Source: Nostoc sp. FACHB-152
GTDB lineage: Bacteria; Cyanobacteriota; Cyanobacteriia; Cyanobacteriales; Nostocaceae
Reading direction: 5' to 3'
DNA: 53,411 nt
Assembly (NCBI RefSeq): GCF_014697475.1
Contig: NZ_JACJRV010000050.1
Location: forward strand, 1 to 53,411
The position numbers and the translations under genes are program-made. Below the pieces are notes generated by a model that did not search any database, had not been told where the DNA came from, and saw only the letters and a list, made by a program, of their open reading frames with translations. This document shows positions 4,408 to 53,353 of this stretch, piece after piece; position 1 is the first letter of the stretch, and each line of letters begins with the position of its first letter.

Positions 4408-5571
4408 TTAATGTTTCAATATAATATGTTTTTTGGCATCAAAGCAAATTAAATTTTGTTGTTGTAATTTACTCAATAATCGGGTAATTGTAACTCTAGT
4501 TGTGCAGCAAGCACTGGCAAGTTCTTCGTGAGTAAAGCGAACACTCAGGCGTGTACCATTGTCTACTTGTTCACCAACTTCTTGTTTGAGAAGTTGTAAT
4601 AAAGATTGCAATCTATCTTCTACTAATTGCTTTCTCGAAATAGCTAAAAATGATTCAGTTTGTTGTAAACGTTGCGTGATTTTTGGTAACAAAATATGGC
4701 TGAGTGCTGGGTTGAGAGCTAGTTCTGTTACGTAAATCGGGACTAACTCAACATCTGATAAAGCTGTAGCTTGGTAAATTGATAGAGAAGTCATATTAGA
4801 GCCAAACACCATTTGAGTTTTTGCTAACCCTAGCAGAACTTCTTCGCCTGTTTCACCAAAAGTGCTGAGTTTGACCCAACCCCGGCAAACATACCACATC
4901 AATGAGGTGTTGAGCGGAATAGTCTCGCCTTTAGAATGTTTATAGATAGGACGATTTTGAATGAGGTCGCTGTAATTGTCTGTTAATTTTAATTCTGTTT
5001 GCTGGCGATCGCCAATATTACGCACTAGCCAAAATAAATTTGTGGCTTGTCCCTGTTGATTCCGAATTACTGTTACTGTCAAAGCTGCATCAACATATTC
5101 GCCATAACGTTGTTGCAAGCGCATCAATAACTCTTTAGATTTATTTGGATGATGTAACTGATTTAGTTCACTACGAAAGTGCTGACGTTCTTCCATACAG
5201 ACAAAGTTAACCATAGCTTTGCCTACAAGAAACTGTTTAGGTATATTCAGTAATTTTGTTATAGTCAAGTTAGCATCTTGAATGACTCCTTCTGTGTTAG
5301 TGACTAAATAGCCCTCTGGTGCAAAATCGAATAATTCCTGATAATATTCACGCTCTGTTTCTAATAGGTTTTGTGTTTTTATTAGTTCTTCGTTTTGCTG
5401 ATATAATTCCTCTGCTATTAACTGTAAAACTTTAGAATTTTCGTACAACTCTTGATAAGCTTGCGGCAGTAAATCAGATGGAATCCAAGGTAAAATGCTA
5501 GCAGTTTGATATAATTCTGCTAGAGGTTTATGCATAGATTCTAAATGTTTAATCAATCGTTCAATAGTCAC
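4408..5571 (-). CDS. PAS-domain transcription regulator with Crp/Fnr-type HTH
   Basis: The 387 residues divide into an N-terminal coiled coil (about 35-75), a PAS domain (about 80-190, starting at FDFAPEGYLVTNTEGVI), a degenerate cyclic-nucleotide-like beta barrel (about 215-300) and a Crp-type winged HTH at the end (FTHEELASACCTTRVTITRLL). Normal Crp/Fnr proteins have about 220 residues, so the PAS-coil part is an added sensor module. I see no Cys cluster or clear cAMP phosphate-binding cassette. Ligand and targets are unknown. It may control its downstream neighbour, the acetyltransferase. Confidence 0.8.
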   Translation of the reverse strand: MTIERLIKHLESMHKPLAELYQTASILPWIPSDLLPQAYQELYENSKVLQLIAEELYQQNEELIKTQNLLETEREYYQELFDFAPEGYLVTNTEGVIQDANLTITKLLNIPKQFLVGKAMVNFVCMEERQHFRSELNQLHHPNKSKELLMRLQQRYGEYVDAALTVTVIRNQQGQATNLFWLVRNIGDRQQTELKLTDNYSDLIQNRPIYKHSKGETIPLNTSLMWYVCRGWVKLSTFGETGEEVLLGLAKTQMVFGSNMTSLSIYQATALSDVELVPIYVTELALNPALSHILLPKITQRLQQTESFLAISRKQLVEDRLQSLLQLLKQEVGEQVDNGTRLSVRFTHEELASACCTTRVTITRLLSKLQQQNLICFDAKKHIILKH

Positions 5572-6715
5572 TTAAATCCCTAGCCTCTACTTGCATACAA
5601 ATTTGATAAAAATAATTCAATTCTATAATTAGATAAGTTAACGATTTTTTATCGTACACATATTAATTATTCACGATAGGACTCATATTTTATTTGTGAA
5701 GAAAACTCACTCTACCTTTATTGCTTCTTTTCTGTTCCCTACTTAAATATAATGAGGAACTACTTGAAGATGATTCAGCCATAATCTTTCTTAGTCTGAA
5801 TCTTATTGTTTAGAAGTTCTTTATGTATTTTTAAGTTTTGTTAGTACATTTGTTTTTTACGAGCTTCTATTTTTAAAATTAAGCCTTATTCTTTTGTTCG
5901 GCTTCTATCTAAAGAGTTAGGTAAATACTCTTTTAGATATAGATATAGATATAGATTTTTTGTTAATTTTTTTAACATCTTCTTTGCTTCAGTTTTAGCA
6001 GTGTGCATTTCAAGATGATTAAATTTTAGAAGCTAAAGAAACTGCACCTAAATACTAAGCATTAGGTTTATGCCTATTGATAAGCTACAGGACTAGTACC
6101 GCAAGGCGGAAGTTAAAAGTATTATGGAATAAGCTTCAATCAATAATTTGAATTATTTTTAAATTTTTCATAATTACTCATTTTTTTATAACTAATTTAA
6201 AGTATGTTTGCCTGATAAGCAGTTGAATATCAAAATTAAAACATAAAGATTTCATGAATAGATTTAAACTTTCTGTCAGTAACTAATCTTTAGCCAGCTA
6301 ATACACGCCTAGTTTGCTAATTAAGTTTTAAATTTAAGATGTAAGCTATAGTAAAAATCTTCATTGATTCAAACTTTATCAATTTAGTATATTTTGCTAG
6401 TTAAATACGCTAATAGAAAACATTCTGATAAAGATTTATAGAAGCAAAAAATCAGTAATTTTTCTCTATGGTTCTCAGTAGACTTGCTTTTATATTGCTG
6501 ATAGTTGCGTTATGAGCCTGTGTGAGCAAATCCAACATTTATTAAACAGTGTGTATCTCTAAATTACGTTTTTAGTTGCTTTTTAAGTCTTTTATATCTG
6601 ATTAATTGATTTTACATAGCAACATAATGGTTTATTTGTCCTCAGGATATAGCTCAGAATTTTAGGTATAAAACATAACGCAACTAGTGCTGAAGTTCAA
6701 AATTATCTCAAGATA
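5572..6715. other. 1.1-kb AT-rich region without genes
   Basis: No frame here looks coding on either strand. It contains a partial copy of the MITE seen at 17353 (5677-5742), a short ATATAG tandem tract near 5936-5955 and a GTACCGCAAGGCGGAAGT fragment near 6095 of the kind dispersed in Nostoc genomes. Divergent genes flank it, so promoters for both probably lie inside. I could not place them. Confidence 0.5.
5677..5742 (+). repeat. Partial copy of the TAGGAYTC-type MITE
   Basis: The segment from TAGGACTCATATTTTATTT to CTGTTCCCTA aligns without large gaps to 17353-17417, roughly 80 percent identical by eye. The right terminal inverted repeat is missing, so this is a decayed or truncated copy. 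Confidence 0.5.
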
Positions 6716-7024
6716 ATGAAGCAATATAGTTTTACTTTGCTAGTTCTGCTGTTAAGTGCAGTTTCTAACTTTATGGTCATTCCATGCCAAGCTCAAACTG
6801 CAAGCGATTCAAAGATTAACACTACTAATAATATTTCATCTGAAAAAGTATCCACTAATGATAATCGAGAATCGCAAGTGAGTAATGCAGATAATTCTGC
6901 AAATGGGAAGTCAACTGTAATCTCTGAAAATACTGAGAAAACATCTCCTGTGAGTGCTAATAAAGCTAATTCTCGGATTCCTATCGGCAGTAGAATTTTT
7001 GCTACAGCTTCTATGGAACAATAG
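6716..7024 (+). CDS. Small secreted low-complexity protein
   Basis: This 102-residue protein begins with a clear signal peptide: MKQYSF, a hydrophobic core LLVLLLSAVSNFMVIP, then C-QAQT, with likely cleavage after AQ or A. The mature part is rich in Asn, Ser, Thr and Lys and looks disordered, ending in a short conserved-looking IPIGSRIFATA. I recognise no family. A periplasmic or extracellular location is inferred from the signal sequence. A strong terminator hairpin follows 31 bases after the stop. Confidence 0.55.
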   Translation: MKQYSFTLLVLLLSAVSNFMVIPCQAQTASDSKINTTNNISSEKVSTNDNRESQVSNADNSANGKSTVISENTEKTSPVSANKANSRIPIGSRIFATASMEQ

Positions 7025-7099: not shown

Positions 7100-8350
7100 T
7101 TAGTTAATTGATCTGGAAGCATTGTTTTGCAGAAGAACTTGCTCATAGAGTTTTCCGGCGGTATCCCAAGTAAATTCTGTTTCTACTAATTGTCTGCCGT
7201 TGTGAGACAATTCATGACGCAGTTGGGGATGATTAAATAATTCGCTAATAGCTGTAACGTACTGGGTTGGTGTATTTGCTCTTAAAGCACGTAATGGTTT
7301 ACCAGCAATATCTACAGCTAATCCTTCTAAACCGCGATCGCTTGCTACTACTGGTACACCAGAGGCCATTGCTTCTAGGGTTTTGTTTTTAATTCCAAAC
7401 CCAGTTCTAAGTGGAACAACGCAGACACAAGACTGATGCAAATATTCTGCCATTGAAGGTACGCGACCTGTCACGACAACTCCCGGAATTTTCTGCAAGT
7501 CAAGAACTTCTGGTGTCGGTCTAGCACCAACAATACTAAATGTGGTTTCTGGATAATGTTGTTGCAGTTTAGGTAAGACTTCCACCGCAAAAAAGCGTGC
7601 GGCATCAATATTATGGGATGCATCCATTGCACCGACAAAAATTAACTTATGTCCACCAGGGTCTTGCTGACGGTAGGGAAATAGTTCTAAATCTACACCG
7701 TTAGGAATGACTTCGATTTCAATATCAGGACGCAGTTTCAGAAATTCTTGGCGATCATCTTCTGTCGTAACCACAATATTAGAAAATTTATTGCAGTAAC
7801 GCTGCTCGTAGCGTTTGAGAACAAGAGAGAGATAAAGGCGATCGCGCATTGCATTTTGCGCCGCACCCATTTCTAAATGGTCACGAATCCAGCCATAAAC
7901 CGAACTGTGAACATCGACAACCGTATTTACACGGTGACGAAATTCCGGTCTAATATAAATTTCATTTACACTGTGTTCACAAGTAATTACATCACACTTT
8001 TGAGAACGCACATAATCATCGACAAAAGCTTGAATCTCCGGGGAATAGCGATACAGAACGTTTGGCGGCGTGGCTTTTAGCACAGATTCCACAAAGCGCG
8101 TAGTTTTGCCTAACAAACGAGCGATCGCATTTTTTTCTTGGGGTTGTGCTGGTATCGGGAAAACTATCAGTTCACTTACATATTTTCTTAATTCCTCTAC
8201 CTCTGCACTTGAAACATCCTTATGAGTTTGCGTAATTAAAGTTACACAATGTGTGCCTTGAAGGTACTTAAGTAAATTAAACGTTCTAATTTCTGTTCCA
8301 CCGCGACTAGGGGGATATGGGAAAGTAGAAGAAAGCATCAGGATGTGCAT
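7100..8350 (-). CDS. Glycosyltransferase family 4
   Basis: This 416-residue GT-B glycosyltransferase has an N-terminal Rossmann half starting MHILMLSSTFPYPPSRGGTE (acceptor side, glycine-rich GGTE loop). The C-terminal nucleotide-sugar half contains IPNGVDLELF, LIFVGAMDASHN, the VVPLRTGFGIKNKTLEAMA motif with the donor-binding Glu, and GVPVVASDRGLEGL. It probably adds a sugar in exopolysaccharide or cell-surface glycan synthesis; donor and acceptor are unknown. Transcription ends at the strong hairpin at 7056-7088. A GT2 gene lies divergently upstream, suggesting a small glycan locus. Confidence 0.88.
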   Translation of the reverse strand: MHILMLSSTFPYPPSRGGTEIRTFNLLKYLQGTHCVTLITQTHKDVSSAEVEELRKYVSELIVFPIPAQPQEKNAIARLLGKTTRFVESVLKATPPNVLYRYSPEIQAFVDDYVRSQKCDVITCEHSVNEIYIRPEFRHRVNTVVDVHSSVYGWIRDHLEMGAAQNAMRDRLYLSLVLKRYEQRYCNKFSNIVVTTEDDRQEFLKLRPDIEIEVIPNGVDLELFPYRQQDPGGHKLIFVGAMDASHNIDAARFFAVEVLPKLQQHYPETTFSIVGARPTPEVLDLQKIPGVVVTGRVPSMAEYLHQSCVCVVPLRTGFGIKNKTLEAMASGVPVVASDRGLEGLAVDIAGKPLRALRANTPTQYVTAISELFNHPQLRHELSHNGRQLVETEFTWDTAGKLYEQVLLQNNASRSIN

Positions 8351-8757
8351 ATAAATTCGATATTCCTTTTAAAAGTTAGTATTTTTTCTACTCAGTAGAT
8401 GCTATCTGTAAACTATAACTGCAAATAATCAAATCATCCAATTTTTGGTCTGAGTCGCTTGAAAGCATTCAGACATAATCCTTCTAATGTGTATAGCCAG
8501 ATTTTACATATACCTGTAAAGCAGACATCTTACTTACCGCTACATTGATATTAAGAATCTGGCTTGATTACCGAAAATACTTGTGTAGTCAGGCAATAAG
8601 TAACAAGCAATAATGTAGGTAAAATCAGTAAATTTTTAAAAAAATAAAATCTAATTTCTAAATTTAAATATTTTTTTGATTAAAAATATAGACTAAACCT
8701 AGCAAACATGATAAATAAACTTAAATCAGCTTAAATTAAAACTTATATCATCAACAG
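8351..8757. other. AT-rich divergent promoter region
   Basis: This stretch of about 400 bases separates two divergent glycosyltransferase genes. I see no coding frame, RNA gene or strong hairpin. It presumably carries both promoters, but no box is clear enough to place. Confidence 0.4.
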
Positions 8758-9717
8758 ATGAATAATAAACCGCTTCTATCAATAGTTACTCCCACCTTAG
8801 GAAAATTTTCTAATTATTGGTTAGAGAATCTTTTAAAAGTAGAAGGTTCTGTTCAGTTCATTTTAGTTTATCCACCTCAAGTAAAGATTAAAGTTATAGA
8901 TGACCCCAGAGTTACAGTAATAGTTAGCCCATATAAAGGCGAAATGCCTCAAAGATTCTTAGGTTTGCTGAATGCTCAAGGTGAATATGTTTTAGCTTTA
9001 GATGATGATGATTTTGTTCATCCGCAAGTATGCGAATTAATTAGCAAATACTTTAGTAGATTTCCTACAAGCTGGATTCTCAGATTACAAAAAGCCAATA
9101 TAGATTTTAAAGATGAACAGCGCATCAAACAACCTTGGGCAGCAATTCCTGAGGCTAATCAATTAGAAATCTGCAAAAAAACACCAGAAAACCCTTATCC
9201 CTACCAAAGAGGTAATTATAAAGGTTTATTAGAAGTTCCTATTGCACCTTTAAATAAAAAATTTGACTGGCGTTATCTTATTTGGCCTTTTTTAAATAGG
9301 CAAGATAATAATGGATATCATTTTGAAAATTTCAATAATATAGTTTGGAGAAACGATTTAATACAGCAAGCCCTACCTGATCTTGCAAAAGCCACAAAAG
9401 TAGTAGGTGCAGTTACTTGGATACCATCAAGTGGTTTTGATAGATTATCAGGCTTGTTTATGCAAGCCAAATTTTTCGAGCAAGAGGCGATTATTGGACA
9501 TTGGCTACCTAAGCCAGAACAAATTAGATATCTTGATAAAGACCCAGCCTTAAAACCGCCTAGATTCCATGTAATATCTGATGCTTTATTAATTAAGCAT
9601 TTTCCCCAATACGGTTATTTTTGGAATCTTGTATTTAGTAAGTTTTACGATGTGCCTAGAACTGTAGCTAAAGCAGTTAAACTCAAGTTTTTCAAAAAAG
9701 AACAGCAGTATTCTTGA
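8758..9717 (+). CDS. Glycosyltransferase family 2 (GT-A fold)
   Basis: The protein has 319 residues. It opens with the GT2 signature LLSIVTPTLGKFSNYWLENLL and carries the metal-binding acidic run YVLALDDDDF at about residue 80. The middle is rich in aromatic and basic residues, and no membrane segment is evident. GT2 enzymes transfer sugars from NDP-sugars during polysaccharide synthesis; the specific substrate is not visible. It is divergent from a GT4 gene and followed by the minus-strand ParA/ParB-type operon, with convergent ends 29 bases apart. Confidence 0.8.
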   Translation: MNNKPLLSIVTPTLGKFSNYWLENLLKVEGSVQFILVYPPQVKIKVIDDPRVTVIVSPYKGEMPQRFLGLLNAQGEYVLALDDDDFVHPQVCELISKYFSRFPTSWILRLQKANIDFKDEQRIKQPWAAIPEANQLEICKKTPENPYPYQRGNYKGLLEVPIAPLNKKFDWRYLIWPFLNRQDNNGYHFENFNNIVWRNDLIQQALPDLAKATKVVGAVTWIPSSGFDRLSGLFMQAKFFEQEAIIGHWLPKPEQIRYLDKDPALKPPRFHVISDALLIKHFPQYGYFWNLVFSKFYDVPRTVAKAVKLKFFKKEQQYS

Positions 9718-9746: not shown

Positions 9747-10058
9747 TTATTTATTTTGTGGAAGAGTTGGAGTAATTTGACGATGAGTGTTTAAGTATAG
9801 TTGAGTAATTATAAATCCTACACTTAAAGCTAAACTAATAGATAGGGCGATCGCTACATAATTCTTCTTCCAAACACTTAGCTTCCCTTGTTGATATGCG
9901 GTATTAGTTATATTAACTTCATGCCTAGCCTGTTCCAAAATAGACTGGAGAGCATTTATTTGTTCATCATCTAGCTTGGAAAATTTATCTTGATTGAAAG
10001 CTGCTTCTATAATTTTGATCTTTTCTTGTGGTGATACTTGTGCTAGTTCTTGTCTCAC
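9747..10058 (-). CDS. Small C-terminally membrane-anchored protein of the ParA/ParB operon
   Basis: The protein has about 103 residues from a GTG start. The frame stays open upstream to 10101 and still reads protein-like (KQSNPYEVVRQEL), so the true start may lie further up and overlap the ParB-like gene. The N-terminal 70 residues form charged helices (SPQEKIKIIEAAF, DDEQINALQSILEQA). One membrane helix follows (NYVAIALSISLALSVGFIIT), then a short polar tail, so the protein is mostly cytoplasmic. I recognise no family. As last gene of the operon it could tie the system to the membrane. Confidence 0.55.
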   Translation of the reverse strand: MRQELAQVSPQEKIKIIEAAFNQDKFSKLDDEQINALQSILEQARHEVNITNTAYQQGKLSVWKKNYVAIALSISLALSVGFIITQLYLNTHRQITPTLPQNK

Positions 10059-10087
10059 AACTTCGTAAGGATTACTTTGCTTAAATT

Positions 10088-10831
10088 TTAGATAACCCCC
10101 TCAGTAAAACTATCAATAATCTTGAGCATTGTTTTTTCACCTAAGCCTTCAACACGTTTAACTGTGTTACCAAAAGATTGAAAATTTCCATTTTTGCGTT
10201 CTTTAAGGATTGAATCTATTATTTTTTGGCTAACATTAGCTCTTTTTAACTTAGAAGTAAGCTCAGATATACTTAAATTGTTTAGTGCATCTAATGGTTC
10301 AATAGGCTTTGGAAGCTTACTATCAATTTCATTTATTTTATTAGTAATACTTTTAATTTCTCGTCTCCACTCTTCTTGTAATTCATCGGTGCGCTTTTCA
10401 ATTCGGGATTCTAAATTTGTTAATCGAGACTCGATATTTGTAATCCTTGATTCCATATTTATATTGTGAGATTCATAAATATTTGAATTATCGTTAATAA
10501 TTTTATTGTCAGAATGGTGTTTTTGATTTCTGAGTAATTTAACTTGTTCTTCGATAGATTCTTGATTACTAGGCTCTATGATAAACGCTCCAATCATTTC
10601 GCCCTTGCGTAAATCTATTTCTCTAGCTCTAGCCGCAGCATAGTATTCAAAGTGTCCATCAACGACCTCGTAAGATTCTATACTCGTACTCCGAAGTATT
10701 AAAGGATTAATAATTCCTTCGCCTTTTAAAACTAAATTTGCAATATGTTCTATATCTTTATCTGAGAAATTAGAACGTGGCACACTAGATGTAATTTGTT
10801 TTACAGGTACAAATGAAATAGACAGTAACAT
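10088..10831 (-). CDS. ParB-like N-terminal domain protein with coiled coil and helix-hairpin-helix
   Basis: This 247-residue protein has three parts. The first (about 5-90) resembles the ParB/Srx nuclease-like domain: INPLILR, then YEVVDGHFEYYAAARA where ParB proteins have the GxRR-type CTP/phosphate motif. The second (about 120-172) is a coiled coil with heptad-like IESRLTNLESRIEK repeats. The third (about 180-247) ends in a ComEA-like HhH, NFQSFGNTVKRVEGLGEKTM, which suggests sequence-independent DNA binding. The classical ParB central HTH is absent. It starts 2 bases after the stop of the nuclease-ParA gene, so the two are translationally coupled. Confidence 0.72.
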   Translation of the reverse strand: MLLSISFVPVKQITSSVPRSNFSDKDIEHIANLVLKGEGIINPLILRSTSIESYEVVDGHFEYYAAARAREIDLRKGEMIGAFIIEPSNQESIEEQVKLLRNQKHHSDNKIINDNSNIYESHNINMESRITNIESRLTNLESRIEKRTDELQEEWRREIKSITNKINEIDSKLPKPIEPLDALNNLSISELTSKLKRANVSQKIIDSILKERKNGNFQSFGNTVKRVEGLGEKTMLKIIDSFTEGVI

Positions 10832-10833
10832 TA

Positions 10834-12198
10834 TTAAATTCCTGTTTTTTGTAAAACTTCTATAGCTAGTAACTCAAACTCTTTAGCCGAGTCACCATGT
10901 GGCTTGTATTCAAATACAGACCTGGGATCAGGAACTTCTAAATCTCCTATTTGTTGAACTTGTTCTAGACATTTTGCAAGTTCTTCTCTTTGATAAATTA
11001 CAGTATCTAATACAGGCAAATCATAGCGTTGAGAAATTGCTGCTATTTGTTTAGGTAATGTATGTTGTACAAACTTAGGAAAAGTTGCAATTTTACATGC
11101 AAGAACTCCTAGTATTGTTAAAGGAGGTTTATTTAATGAGCTTCTAAATTGATTAACTTCATATTTAATGTATTCTTTTACATTAATTAAACCCTGATTA
11201 GCAAATGGTTTCAAATCTGAAGGGATAATTAGATAGTCTGATGTAATTAGTGCAATAAAAGCAAATAAATTTAAAGAAGGTGGTGTATCAATAATAACAA
11301 TATCATACTTATCCTGTACTTCTTTGAGTTTGTTTATTAATCTAGTATGGCTTGATCTCAATTCATTTAATTCTCTTTCCATTTTCATCAGATTAATATG
11401 TGATGGAATTATATCTATTTCTGGATTTGTAAATACAGATTTTCTAGCTACTTCCGTAATAGTATCAAGTTCTACTGAACGCAATATATGATAAACATAA
11501 TTATCTTTTATATTATCTGAAATTTCATCATCAAATTTAACCAATCCAGTAGCAAATGTAGTATTTGCTTGGCTATCTAAGTCTATTACTAAAACTCTTT
11601 TACCTTTCTTTCTAATAGCTGCGGCTAGATTGACTACAGTAGTAGTCTTGCCTACTCCGCCTTTATTATGGTAGACAGCAATAATTTTCATCGAATGTTT
11701 CTCCTTAATTTCACCCTTATAACTATCTGGCACTACTAAAGGTTCTGTTTTATCCAGAGGTTCCTTATCCTTTAAAGTATCTCTACCAATAAAACTTTTA
11801 ATTTCTTCTATTTTTGTCTCTACTTCCTTTCCGGAACATAAAAAAACTAATCTAATATCATCAGCTAATTTTTCATAAATTCTAATCTCTTTACCATTAG
11901 TTAATAATCCATATTTCACATTTAAGCTTGTTAAATAATGCCTAAGCCTGAGAAAATGATTATTTAAGTTTTGTTTAGGATGCTTTGCCTCCATCACAAC
12001 ACTCAGTGGCGAGTTAGCATCTATGACAAAGGGAAGAACTTGTGCCGCAAATGCTAGAAAATCTAAGCGGATGCTACCAACGGCGACTTCTTGATGCCAG
12101 GTATCGGGAGTATATCCTAGCTGTGGTAGCAAATATTGGACTATGAGTTTGCTTTCAACTTCGCTTTCGTTACGGCACAACTCAGGATTAAACGGCAA
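10834..12198 (-). CDS. HsdR_N-like nuclease domain fused to ParA ATPase
   Basis: I place the start at TTG 12198-12196, which has GAGGAG 6 bases upstream. The longer frame to 12267 begins with TTG at or upstream of the probable -10 box. The 454-residue protein has an N-terminal domain like the type I restriction R-subunit N-terminus (ESEVESKLIVQYLLPQLGY, then RLDF at 44-47 and VMEAKHP with E70/K72), an apparently intact PD-(D/E)XK site. After a charged linker comes a complete ParA domain: KGGVGKTT (179-186), VLVIDLDSQANT and IVIIDTPPS. It heads an operon with the ParB-like and membrane genes. An internal ATG could give ParA alone. Confidence 0.75.
   Translation of the reverse strand: MPFNPELCRNESEVESKLIVQYLLPQLGYTPDTWHQEVAVGSIRLDFLAFAAQVLPFVIDANSPLSVVMEAKHPKQNLNNHFLRLRHYLTSLNVKYGLLTNGKEIRIYEKLADDIRLVFLCSGKEVETKIEEIKSFIGRDTLKDKEPLDKTEPLVVPDSYKGEIKEKHSMKIIAVYHNKGGVGKTTTVVNLAAAIRKKGKRVLVIDLDSQANTTFATGLVKFDDEISDNIKDNYVYHILRSVELDTITEVARKSVFTNPEIDIIPSHINLMKMERELNELRSSHTRLINKLKEVQDKYDIVIIDTPPSLNLFAFIALITSDYLIIPSDLKPFANQGLINVKEYIKYEVNQFRSSLNKPPLTILGVLACKIATFPKFVQHTLPKQIAAISQRYDLPVLDTVIYQREELAKCLEQVQQIGDLEVPDPRSVFEYKPHGDSAKEFELLAIEVLQKTGI
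11689..11706 (-). promoter_or_regulatory. Internal ribosome-binding site and ATG for a ParA-only product
   Basis: AAGGAG at 11706-11701 lies 9 bases before ATG 11691-11689. That ATG begins MKIIAVYHNKGG, exactly where a free-standing ParA would start. It is a stronger initiation signal than the TTG of the full-length gene. Translation from here would give a ParA domain of about 285 residues without the nuclease domain. Confidence 0.5.
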
Positions 12199-12269
12199 TT
12201 TATTCTCCTCTATAAAGTTTAGGTTATGGGAAAAATACCTATATTTATTTGTTTGATTTTGGCACAAGT

Positions 12270-12540: not shown

Positions 12541-13425
12541 ATGGGATATGTAATTGCTACTGCAAATATGAAAGGCGGTGTCGGCAAAACTACTCTCACC
12601 GTCAACTTAGCTACCTGTTTGGCGAAAAATTACGGTAAGCGGGTGCTGGTATTAGACTTAGACACTCAAATCAGTGCCACACTCAGTTTGATGTCGCCTT
12701 TAGATTTTGCCAAGCGTCGTAAACAAAGGCTGACATTTAGGTATTTAATCGACGATGTTATCAATCCAGATCCTAACAGTAAGCTAACAATTAACGATAT
12801 TATTCAAAATCAAGTTTGTGGGCTTCCCGAACTTAATTTATTGCCGGGTGATATCGATTTGTATGATGAGTTTGTTGTGTCAGAAATGCTGCACAAACAA
12901 ACAGTTGCTTTTGGCGAACAAAACTTTGAAGCAGTTTGGAACCGTTTTGAACGAGTTTTGTTAAACAACATTTTAAAACCAGTGCGCGATCAGTATGATT
13001 TTATTCTTTTAGATTGCGCGCCTGGTTATAATTTGTTAACCCGCAGTGCTTTAGCTGCTAGTGATTTTTACATTCTCCCAGCCAAACCAGAACCTTTATC
13101 TGTGGTAGGCATTCAGCTTTTAGAAAGACGCATCGGTCAGTTAAAAGATAGTCACGAACAAGAAGCGAAAATAAATATCAAAATGTTGGGAATTGTTTTT
13201 AGTATGTGCAACACAAATATACTCACTGGCAGATATTACAAACAAGTTATGCACCGAGTTGTAGAAGATTTTGGTGTAGAACAAATTTGTAAGGCACAAA
13301 TCCCAGTTGATATTAATGTTGCTAAAGCTGTTGATAGTTTTATGCCGGCTGTTTTGAATGCACCTCAATCAGCTGGTTCTAAAGCATTTTTGCAGTTAAC
13401 TCAAGAGTTGTTGCAGAAATTATAG
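12541..13425 (+). CDS. ParA-family ATPase
   Basis: This 294-residue P-loop ATPase of the ParA/MinD group has the deviant Walker A KGGVGKTT at 11-18 with the signature Lys, the LVLDLDTQISAT motif, and Walker B FILLDCAPG. AGAGGA lies just upstream of the ATG. ParA proteins dimerise on ATP and bind DNA nonspecifically to position cargo. The cargo here (chromosome, carboxysome, other) is not shown, and no ParB follows it. It is divergent from, and clearly different in sequence from, the nuclease-fused ParA, so it is not a recent duplicate. Confidence 0.85.
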   Translation: MGYVIATANMKGGVGKTTLTVNLATCLAKNYGKRVLVLDLDTQISATLSLMSPLDFAKRRKQRLTFRYLIDDVINPDPNSKLTINDIIQNQVCGLPELNLLPGDIDLYDEFVVSEMLHKQTVAFGEQNFEAVWNRFERVLLNNILKPVRDQYDFILLDCAPGYNLLTRSALAASDFYILPAKPEPLSVVGIQLLERRIGQLKDSHEQEAKINIKMLGIVFSMCNTNILTGRYYKQVMHRVVEDFGVEQICKAQIPVDINVAKAVDSFMPAVLNAPQSAGSKAFLQLTQELLQKL

Positions 13426-52378: not shown

Positions 52379-53353
52379 ATGTTGACGACAACGTGGCAAG
52401 AAGAAATTGCATCCTTAAAACAAAACTTGAACAAAGAAATAAAGCAAATTTCGGGTGGTTCAGATATTAATATACCTAATCATATTTGCATTAATAACCT
52501 GAAATCCAAGTTAGAGCGATTAGATGAAATTGAAAAAATTCTTAGTGTAGATAAATATAAGATTGCTTTTATAGGTACTATAGGTCAAGGAAAAACGACA
52601 GCTATTTGTCATCTATTTAATTTAATAAGTGAATTTAAAGTTTCCAAAACTATTGCTGGTAAAACTAAAGATGTAACAGAAATTAAAGAGTTACTTTCAA
52701 CAGGAGCAGGTAAAACTACTATATGTGAAGTAATTATTAAAGCTGCGGAAAAAACATATATAGAGATAGAACCTTATACAGTTGATGAAATGGAAGGTAT
52801 TATTCTTGAGTTTTGTGACTATATTGCAAATAAAGATAATAATCAACCAGAGCATAAAATAATTATTTCTCAAGAAATGGAGAGGGCTATTAGAAATGTT
52901 ATAGAACTAAAAAGAATTAATAAATCAGTTTCTGATAACGGTAAAACTAAAGTTATTATAATTGATAAAGCTAAGGAGCTATTTGAGGAATCAGGAGTAG
53001 AGATACTGAAAAAAACTGCCTTAAATAATGCAAACCTTGAAAGTAGAACTTTGACTCAAATTTATTTTGATAATCAAAATAATGAACAAGCATGGATCAA
53101 AAATACCTTTGCTGCACTTAATAATGTCCAGTTAAAGGAATTTGCTATTCCCAGAAAGATATATCTTTATGTGAGCTATGATGTTTTATCTGGCTCAAAC
53201 TTGTCTCAGTTCGATTCAGTAATTGATACAAAAGGACTTGATGAAAACCCAATTCGTAAAGATTTGCAGAAATATATAGAGAGTGAGGACACAATAGAAT
53301 TTGAAAAAGCTACAGCAGTTTCCTGTGTTATGAGGTACAGTAACAGCAATTAG
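52379..53353 (+). CDS. P-loop GTPase-like protein, probably 3'-truncated
   Basis: The 324 residues start MLTTTWQEEIASLKQNLNKE (coiled). A Walker A AFIGTIGQGKTTAICHLF is at about 64-81, and a second P-loop-like LSTGAGKTTICEV about 45 residues later, which may be the switch region rather than a second site. VIDTKGLDENPIRKDL (about 280) looks like a GTPase G3 (DxxG). After ESEDTI the sequence changes to an unlike tail (EFEKATAVSCVMRYSNSN) and stops, where a longer C-terminal domain would be expected. I infer truncation near 53296. Family not named. Confidence 0.5.
   Translation: MLTTTWQEEIASLKQNLNKEIKQISGGSDINIPNHICINNLKSKLERLDEIEKILSVDKYKIAFIGTIGQGKTTAICHLFNLISEFKVSKTIAGKTKDVTEIKELLSTGAGKTTICEVIIKAAEKTYIEIEPYTVDEMEGIILEFCDYIANKDNNQPEHKIIISQEMERAIRNVIELKRINKSVSDNGKTKVIIIDKAKELFEESGVEILKKTALNNANLESRTLTQIYFDNQNNEQAWIKNTFAALNNVQLKEFAIPRKIYLYVSYDVLSGSNLSQFDSVIDTKGLDENPIRKDLQKYIESEDTIEFEKATAVSCVMRYSNSN

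Follow-up and report, generated by a model that had tools for sequence, protein, structure and literature searches.

Nostoc sp. FACHB-152 carries two adjacent genes in which a predicted nuclease is fused to a complete ParA ATPase (gene 1) and accompanied by a ParB_N-containing adaptor (gene 2). They lie on contig NZ_JACJRV010000050.1, a single whole contig of 53,411 nucleotides from a genome of 8.6 Mb, which was analysed at full length and is referred to below as the window. This pair is the core unit of a chromosomal system that is found in about half of the Nostoc-family genomes examined. Its two subfamilies, A and B, alternate with an FtsK-based operon, here designated system C, such that nearly every family genome examined has A/B or C. 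Rather than settling nearby, the pair has in several genomes replaced the FtsK motor of system C, or the motor together with its restriction endonuclease (REase). Genome comparisons document the architecture, conservation and pairing of the two genes along with their alternation with system C and displacement of it. With roughly even confidence, we infer that the pair is a ParA-based counterpart of FtsK capture systems that would capture and cut invading DNA.

Gene 1 (10834-12198, minus strand, 454 amino acids) is read from a TTG start at 12198 that is immediately preceded by a GAGGAG site, and an in-frame upstream TTG at 12267 is another possible start. Two bases separate it from gene 2 (10088-10831), which is followed after 29 bases by a third open reading frame (ORF; 9747-10058), all three on the minus strand. 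Residues 1-140 of gene 1 (11779-12198, minus strand) are assigned to an HsdR_N-type PD-(D/E)XK domain with intact catalytic residues (E15, D46, E70 and K72) and are predicted to form a nuclease; HsdR_N cuts DNA. Residues 168-454 (10837-11697, minus strand) comprise a complete ParA ATPase domain of the Soj fold, with the deviant Walker A motif KGGVGKTT (179-186) and the invariant D208 and D304. Both the catalytic D, E and K of the nuclease domain and the ParA motifs are invariant among the relatives compared. HSDR_N_2 was matched by 10 of 10 nuclease domains at E ≤ 0.01, and the window's domain passes the cut-off. The structure model of gene 1 is weak in this part, with predicted local distance difference test (pLDDT) values of 43-54 in 10-residue blocks at residues 31-60, and the matches in structure searches were taken up by ParA; the assignment of the nuclease fold thus rests on sequence. 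A profile match of the domain to the solved HsdR 3h1t (E 1.2) is suggestive at most, and phmmer with the nuclease domain alone gave no meaningful match.

Gene 2 encodes a protein of 247 amino acids that consists of a ParB_N domain (10577-10819, minus strand), a coiled coil and a helical, DNA-binding-like C-terminal end (10097-10297, minus strand). ParB_N was detected in 26 of 26 gene 2 members, and the structure model matches ParB and Noc across about 100 residues; it predicts a ParB_N fold followed by a helix and a disordered linker, a long helix and a helical C-terminus. In true ParBs, GERRxR is the motif that binds cytidine triphosphate. At that place the window's protein has GHFEYY and all 26 aligned rows have G-x-[FL]-E-Y-[YH], with the arginine pair absent. 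The Pfam matches of the 26 members include no helix-turn-helix (HTH) family at E ≤ 0.001 that would correspond to the central HTH of ParB. The C-terminal end is helix-hairpin-helix-like (HhH-like) in some members, weakly so in the window, and Rho_N/SAP-like in others; given these two kinds of end, this part of gene 2 seems exchangeable. The protein diverges fast, with 33-67% identity to the window's copy in 25 relatives. A sequence-only reading that preceded this analysis had described gene 1 as an HsdR_N-like domain joined to a full ParA and gene 2 as a ParB-like domain with a coiled coil, a terminal HhH and no central HTH, and the domain matches bear out both descriptions.

The ParA fold and a probably partner-dependent mode of action are features that gene 1 has in common with McdA and other ParA/MinD positioners, and it might be supposed that it positions a protein cargo and that HsdR_N only binds DNA. 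However, gene 1 differs from these positioners in its nuclease domain and its DNA-binding-like partner. Moreover, the nuclease domain has kept its catalytic residues without variation, and two kinds of DNA-binding-like end occur in gene 2; we therefore assign this explanation very little probability.

The distribution of the pair was surveyed in cyanobacteria, using 192 genomes of the Nostoc family and 291 genomes from across the class (G, L and g numbers below denote genomes, loci and genera of these sets). Within the family, gene 1 was found in 93 genomes, representing 37 of the 56 genera sampled, and gene 2 in 96, with 92 genomes in common; the gene 1 count includes eight ParA proteins without the nuclease domain, and the match in G037 is confined to residues 1-213. 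Two peptide patterns specific to subfamily A, to which the window's pair belongs, yielded 136 gene 1 relatives. The 80 that were listed by name are from cyanobacteria (e.g. Nostoc, Anabaena, Fischerella and Calothrix), and in 77 of these 80 loci a gene 2 relative lies downstream, the other three stopping at contig ends; the proposed linkage of the two genes therefore holds almost without exception. Subfamily B, which is about 33% identical to A and has its own gene 2, was detected in 15 of the 192 family genomes and 38 of the 291 class genomes. Subfamily A with the nuclease domain or most of it was detected in 57 of the latter, a few of which match partly (e.g. G194, by the nuclease domain alone); 17 further class genomes with only a nuclease-less A-like ParA were left out of this count. 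A and B occur together in none of the class genomes and in one family genome (G068). At two loci (L191 and L197), an A-type pair is followed by a gene resembling B-type gene 2 (364 and 362 amino acids, respectively), an arrangement that looks as though adaptors could be combined. The pair evolves under purifying selection, with ratios of nonsynonymous to synonymous substitutions (dN/dS) of 0.04-0.19 in four pairs compared, three parts each, and gene 2 was the least identical part in three of the four.

ParA and ParB_N parts would also be expected if the pair stemmed from a decayed mobile element, as its partition or addiction module, and the operon is AT-rich, with a guanine-cytosine (GC) content of 0.305 at 10001-12000. 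However, GC content is equally low at 5001-7000 of the same window (0.304), so that the composition of the operon is uninformative on its origin. Searches of 72,556 plasmids, of 50,697 phage records and of viral contigs found no nuclease-ParA fusion, and a plasmid or phage origin was rejected on these grounds. One plasmid ParA covers 82% of gene 1 at 28% identity, and because this alignment spans only query residues 78-449, the nuclease core is not covered. The missing ParB HTH, the purifying selection and the spread over 37 of the 56 family genera likewise argue against a decayed element, which we regard as highly improbable.

The operon that alternates with the pair, system C, consists of a protein of about 860 amino acids with RNase D, REase and FtsK parts, an AAA ATPase of about 700 amino acids and a protein of about 280 amino acids with weak winged helix-turn-helix (wHTH) matches. 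The one FtsK protein tested matched FtsK_SpoIIIE (E 2e-41), FtsK_alpha (1e-11), DNA_pol_A_exo1 (3e-27) and PDDEXK_1 (4e-13); the AAA protein matched AAA_16 just above the cut-off (9e-8), and the third protein matched HTH_45 below it (0.003). In its predicted domains, system C resembles the Orc/Cdc6-HerA/FtsK capture systems as described by Rakesh, Aravind and Krishnan (2024, PMC10853773), which were proposed to serve as anti-invader defence that would intercept invading DNA while it is segregated, transferred or packaged. Such systems are characterised by a HerA/FtsK translocase, an Orc/Cdc6-like AAA subunit with an inserted inactive REase, an active endonuclease domain and a wHTH protein. The main text of that article contains neither the whole word ParA nor any word beginning with cyanobacteri.

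With the presence of system C scored by its AAA gene, C was found in 103 of the 192 family genomes; in the window's genome this gene was not found at E 1e-30. A, B or C is present in 185 family genomes (96%), A or B accompanies C in 25, and seven have none of the three (Fisher odds ratio 0.027). In 10,000 shuffles of C within genera, which preserve the counts of each genus and correct for kinship down to the genus level only, the mean number of genomes with both was 41.5 (minimum 33) compared to the observed 25, and the mean number with none was 23.5 (minimum 15) compared to the observed seven. Exchange is apparent even between close relatives: 16 of the 32 multi-genome genera include both A/B-only and C-only members, and in the window's genus, eight genomes have A (G157 without the nuclease domain) and three have C, with none having both or neither. 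Among the seven genomes with none, G082, G135 and G155 are less than 90% complete and the four others are at least 95% complete. The trend is weaker across the class, where six genomes have both and 158 of the 291 have none at the thresholds used (odds ratio 0.28, p 0.003).

Such a pattern could arise if A, B and C merely shared an insertion site, a hotspot in which each would exclude the others by position. The candidate site is the interval between a plain chromosomal ParA gene (12541-13425, plus strand, in the window) and two glycosyltransferase genes (7100-8350, minus strand, and 8758-9717, plus strand; span 7100-9717) that mark the opposite edge. The plain ParA was rejected as a part of the system because it is present in 24 of the 25 genomes of a set checked for it (74-97% identity across 23 others), whether the pair is present or not; the glycosyltransferase genes were set aside because related genes flank A and C alike. 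This ParA lies within 6 kb in 26 of 41 A loci, the window included, and in genomes without A, system C often fills the same interval. Nineteen loci without A were retrieved by way of the plain ParA, and 13 of them have all three C genes at this place; in one genome (G161, L113) C lies between a ParA and a GT4 gene that are 96% and 89% identical, respectively, to those of the window. One further locus retrieved in this way (L132) belongs to a genome that has A at another site. The six exceptions are L119, with C fragments, L122, with B, L127, with a 689-amino acid frame fitting an FtsK gene without its RNase D part, and L120, L126 and L128. The genomes of the last three (G012, G005 and G018, respectively) have C elsewhere, away from the plain ParA, and nevertheless lack A. 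Similarly, in genus g7, the A pair adjoins a purD-like gene (named by eye) in seven loci (L073, L077-L079, L097, L098 and L105), and these seven genomes still lack C, although this may be one event. In other lineages, A or B adjoins different chromosomal genes. Furthermore, a mere hotspot would be expected to be often empty, but only seven of the 192 family genomes lack all three systems. A shared site as the sole cause of the alternation is thus rather improbable.

In addition to alternating with system C, the pair has displaced parts of it in place in several genomes. A scan of 89 loci showed 14 in which an A or B gene is accompanied by traces of C. The G030 locus runs from the plain ParA through a 34-residue FtsK fossil, gene 1 and gene 2 of subfamily B, and a frame with RNase D and REase only to the wHTH gene; the downstream frame is open and ends after the REase (c20 residues 4-487), and the wHTH frame is open and shortened. 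G127, from the same genus (g30), has subfamily A at the same junction, with open AAA and wHTH frames. Only the RNase D part of the FtsK gene is left in G040, G080 and G117, FtsK ends are kept upstream of gene 1 in G102 and G066, and a few relatives still have the AAA gene of C next to the pair. A system C with its parts still present adjoins the pair in G022 and G083; at the G022 locus (L092), two A-like pairs flank the three-gene C, and the second ParA is without the nuclease domain. As the FtsK fossils and other remnants around A or B show, the pair took over the position of the FtsK motor, or of motor and REase together, in several genomes; in G030 and G127, A or B sits where the motor had been. 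System C is present in seven of the eight genomes with a nuclease-less A-type ParA versus 14 of the 85 with a nuclease-bearing one; because three of the eight belong to g47 and two to g24, the link between nuclease loss and C is only suggestive.

Because systems like C have been proposed to intercept invading DNA (PMC10853773), the pair most likely does likewise with a different motor. A role in defence, one of two functions that the sequence-only reading had suggested, is accordingly favoured, albeit indirectly, by the alternation with and displacement of a proposed anti-invader system; the other, that of a mobile-element partition module, fell with the failure to find the fusion in plasmids, phages and viral contigs. 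ParA dimers bind DNA in the state bound to adenosine triphosphate (ATP), and ParB-type partners release them. By analogy, the ATP-bound ParA part of gene 1 would dimerise and coat DNA like other ParAs, the HhH- or SAP-like end of gene 2 would mark or hold the target DNA, and the ParB_N part of gene 2 would stimulate or retain ParA. ParA could in this way concentrate and pair the fused HsdR_N nucleases on DNA undergoing segregation, transfer or replication, with cleavage to follow; the targets would be mainly plasmids and phages. Somewhat more tentatively, the pair may be viewed as a new DNA-interference machine, a ParA armed with a restriction-type nuclease that uses partition dynamics, namely ATP-dependent coating of DNA together with an adaptor, to find and destroy DNA and has repeatedly replaced an FtsK system, in some genomes exactly where the FtsK pump had been.

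Several observations weigh against this interpretation. The defence role of system C is itself only predicted, and no PADLOC 2023 model fits the pair. The alternation is incomplete, given that 25 of the 192 family genomes carry A or B plus C and that, at the thresholds applied, 158 of the 291 class genomes lack A, B and C alike; moreover, eight of the 93 A genomes owe their count to a ParA without the nuclease, and when these are dropped, the number of family genomes with none is eight rather than seven. Several of the displacement cases come from one genus, as with G030 and G127, so that independent events are fewer than loci. Finally, presence in 185 of 192 genomes is unusual for defence and also fits a housekeeping function. 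For this reason, the main competing explanation is chromosome maintenance: A/B and C would be interchangeable devices serving a cell function, for example to segregate the numerous chromosome copies of cyanobacteria, trim them or keep their number down, and the DNA cut would be the cell's own, trapped or surplus. This possibility is compatible with the location in a shared chromosomal slot, next to a ParA that 24 of 25 genomes have, with the failure to find the fusion in the plasmids, phages and viral contigs searched, and with the FtsK-alpha domain of the C motor, a domain of cellular FtsK (PMC10853773). However, repeated exchange within genera and fossil remains are what conflict systems more typically show, and gene 2 has diverged rapidly. 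In addition, seven family genomes, including four that are 95% complete or better, and more than half of the class genomes appear to do without any of the three systems. On balance, chromosome maintenance seems unlikely, albeit deserving of serious consideration, and capture of invading DNA is the interpretation that we prefer.

By the features tested, the pair falls outside ParABS, HsdR and HerA/FtsK capture; its parts are recognisably of the ParA/ParB type, and the role inferred for it is that of capture systems. It resembles HerA/FtsK capture in several respects: in this family, the two share a slot on the chromosome and avoid each other, and both have a nuclease, predicted in the case of the pair, coupled to a DNA-handling ATPase of segregation origin, a faster-evolving DNA-binding partner and, in some loci, a winged-helix accessory. 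Unlike those systems, the pair has ParA and a ParB_N adaptor in place of an FtsK motor, which is represented only by fossils beside it in some genomes, and HsdR_N instead of PDDEXK_1 and RNase D, and it has no AAA subunit of its own. A complete ParA of the Soj fold and an adjacent ParB_N partner gene are also found in ParABS (Soj/Spo0J, Noc), but the ParA of the pair is nuclease-fused, and the partner lacks GERRxR and the central HTH and has HhH- or SAP-like ends. Similarly, gene 1 has the HsdR_N nuclease domain of type I restriction HsdR, including the conserved D, E and K, but ParA stands in place of the SF2 helicase motor, and no HsdM or HsdS was noticed by eye in the window's ORFs or among the 25 largest neighbour clusters. 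In PADLOC 2023, the proteins overlapped models in part only, at ParA-motif stretches and at coiled coils. No description of a nuclease-ParA system was recognised in the family libraries or open-access PubMed Central papers searched, in agreement with the earlier impression that the set is undescribed.

The third ORF (gene 3; 9747-10058, minus strand, 103 amino acids, one membrane helix) had been taken for a third member of the operon, a view that the present comparison does not support. Because the frame ahead of its GTG still reads the sequence of a longer protein, of which gene 3 is the final part, it is taken to be the truncated 3' end of an accessory gene for a winged-helix/membrane protein of about 255 amino acids. 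The longer form starts with a winged-helix-like part, continues with a linker and carries a single membrane helix in its last part. It is present in 14 of the 80 listed loci (196-259 amino acids) and in 13 of 41 in another locus set; given the truncation and this optional occurrence, gene 3 was rejected as a core component. The accessory might act as an optional anchor or sensor. A Z-alpha match in this winged-helix accessory (E 0.0023) is below the cut-off, and this domain is not claimed.

Inspected by eye, the neighbours of the pair are ileS, the widespread chromosomal ParA and glycosyltransferases, the latter two of which also flank system C. In six of the seven purD loci of g7, a related glycosyltransferase gene then follows, as in the ileS/ParA slot, and a longer block may therefore have moved. 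Near the contig end, the window also contains a P-loop ATPase-like ORF with weak AAA matches (52379-53353, plus strand).

If the pair is viewed as such a DNA-interference machine, its replacement of the FtsK pump in place would suggest that the capture engine of a near-universal safeguard of this family can be either a gradient-type positioner or a translocating motor. Because members of a genus often differ in the module they carry, two of which are built on ParA and one on FtsK, the functional equivalence of ParA and an FtsK pump is directly testable. The results also add comparative evidence on the proposed HerA/FtsK capture systems. They may further be relevant to what hinders plasmids from becoming established in cyanobacteria, or to a hidden stage in the way these bacteria manage their many chromosome copies.
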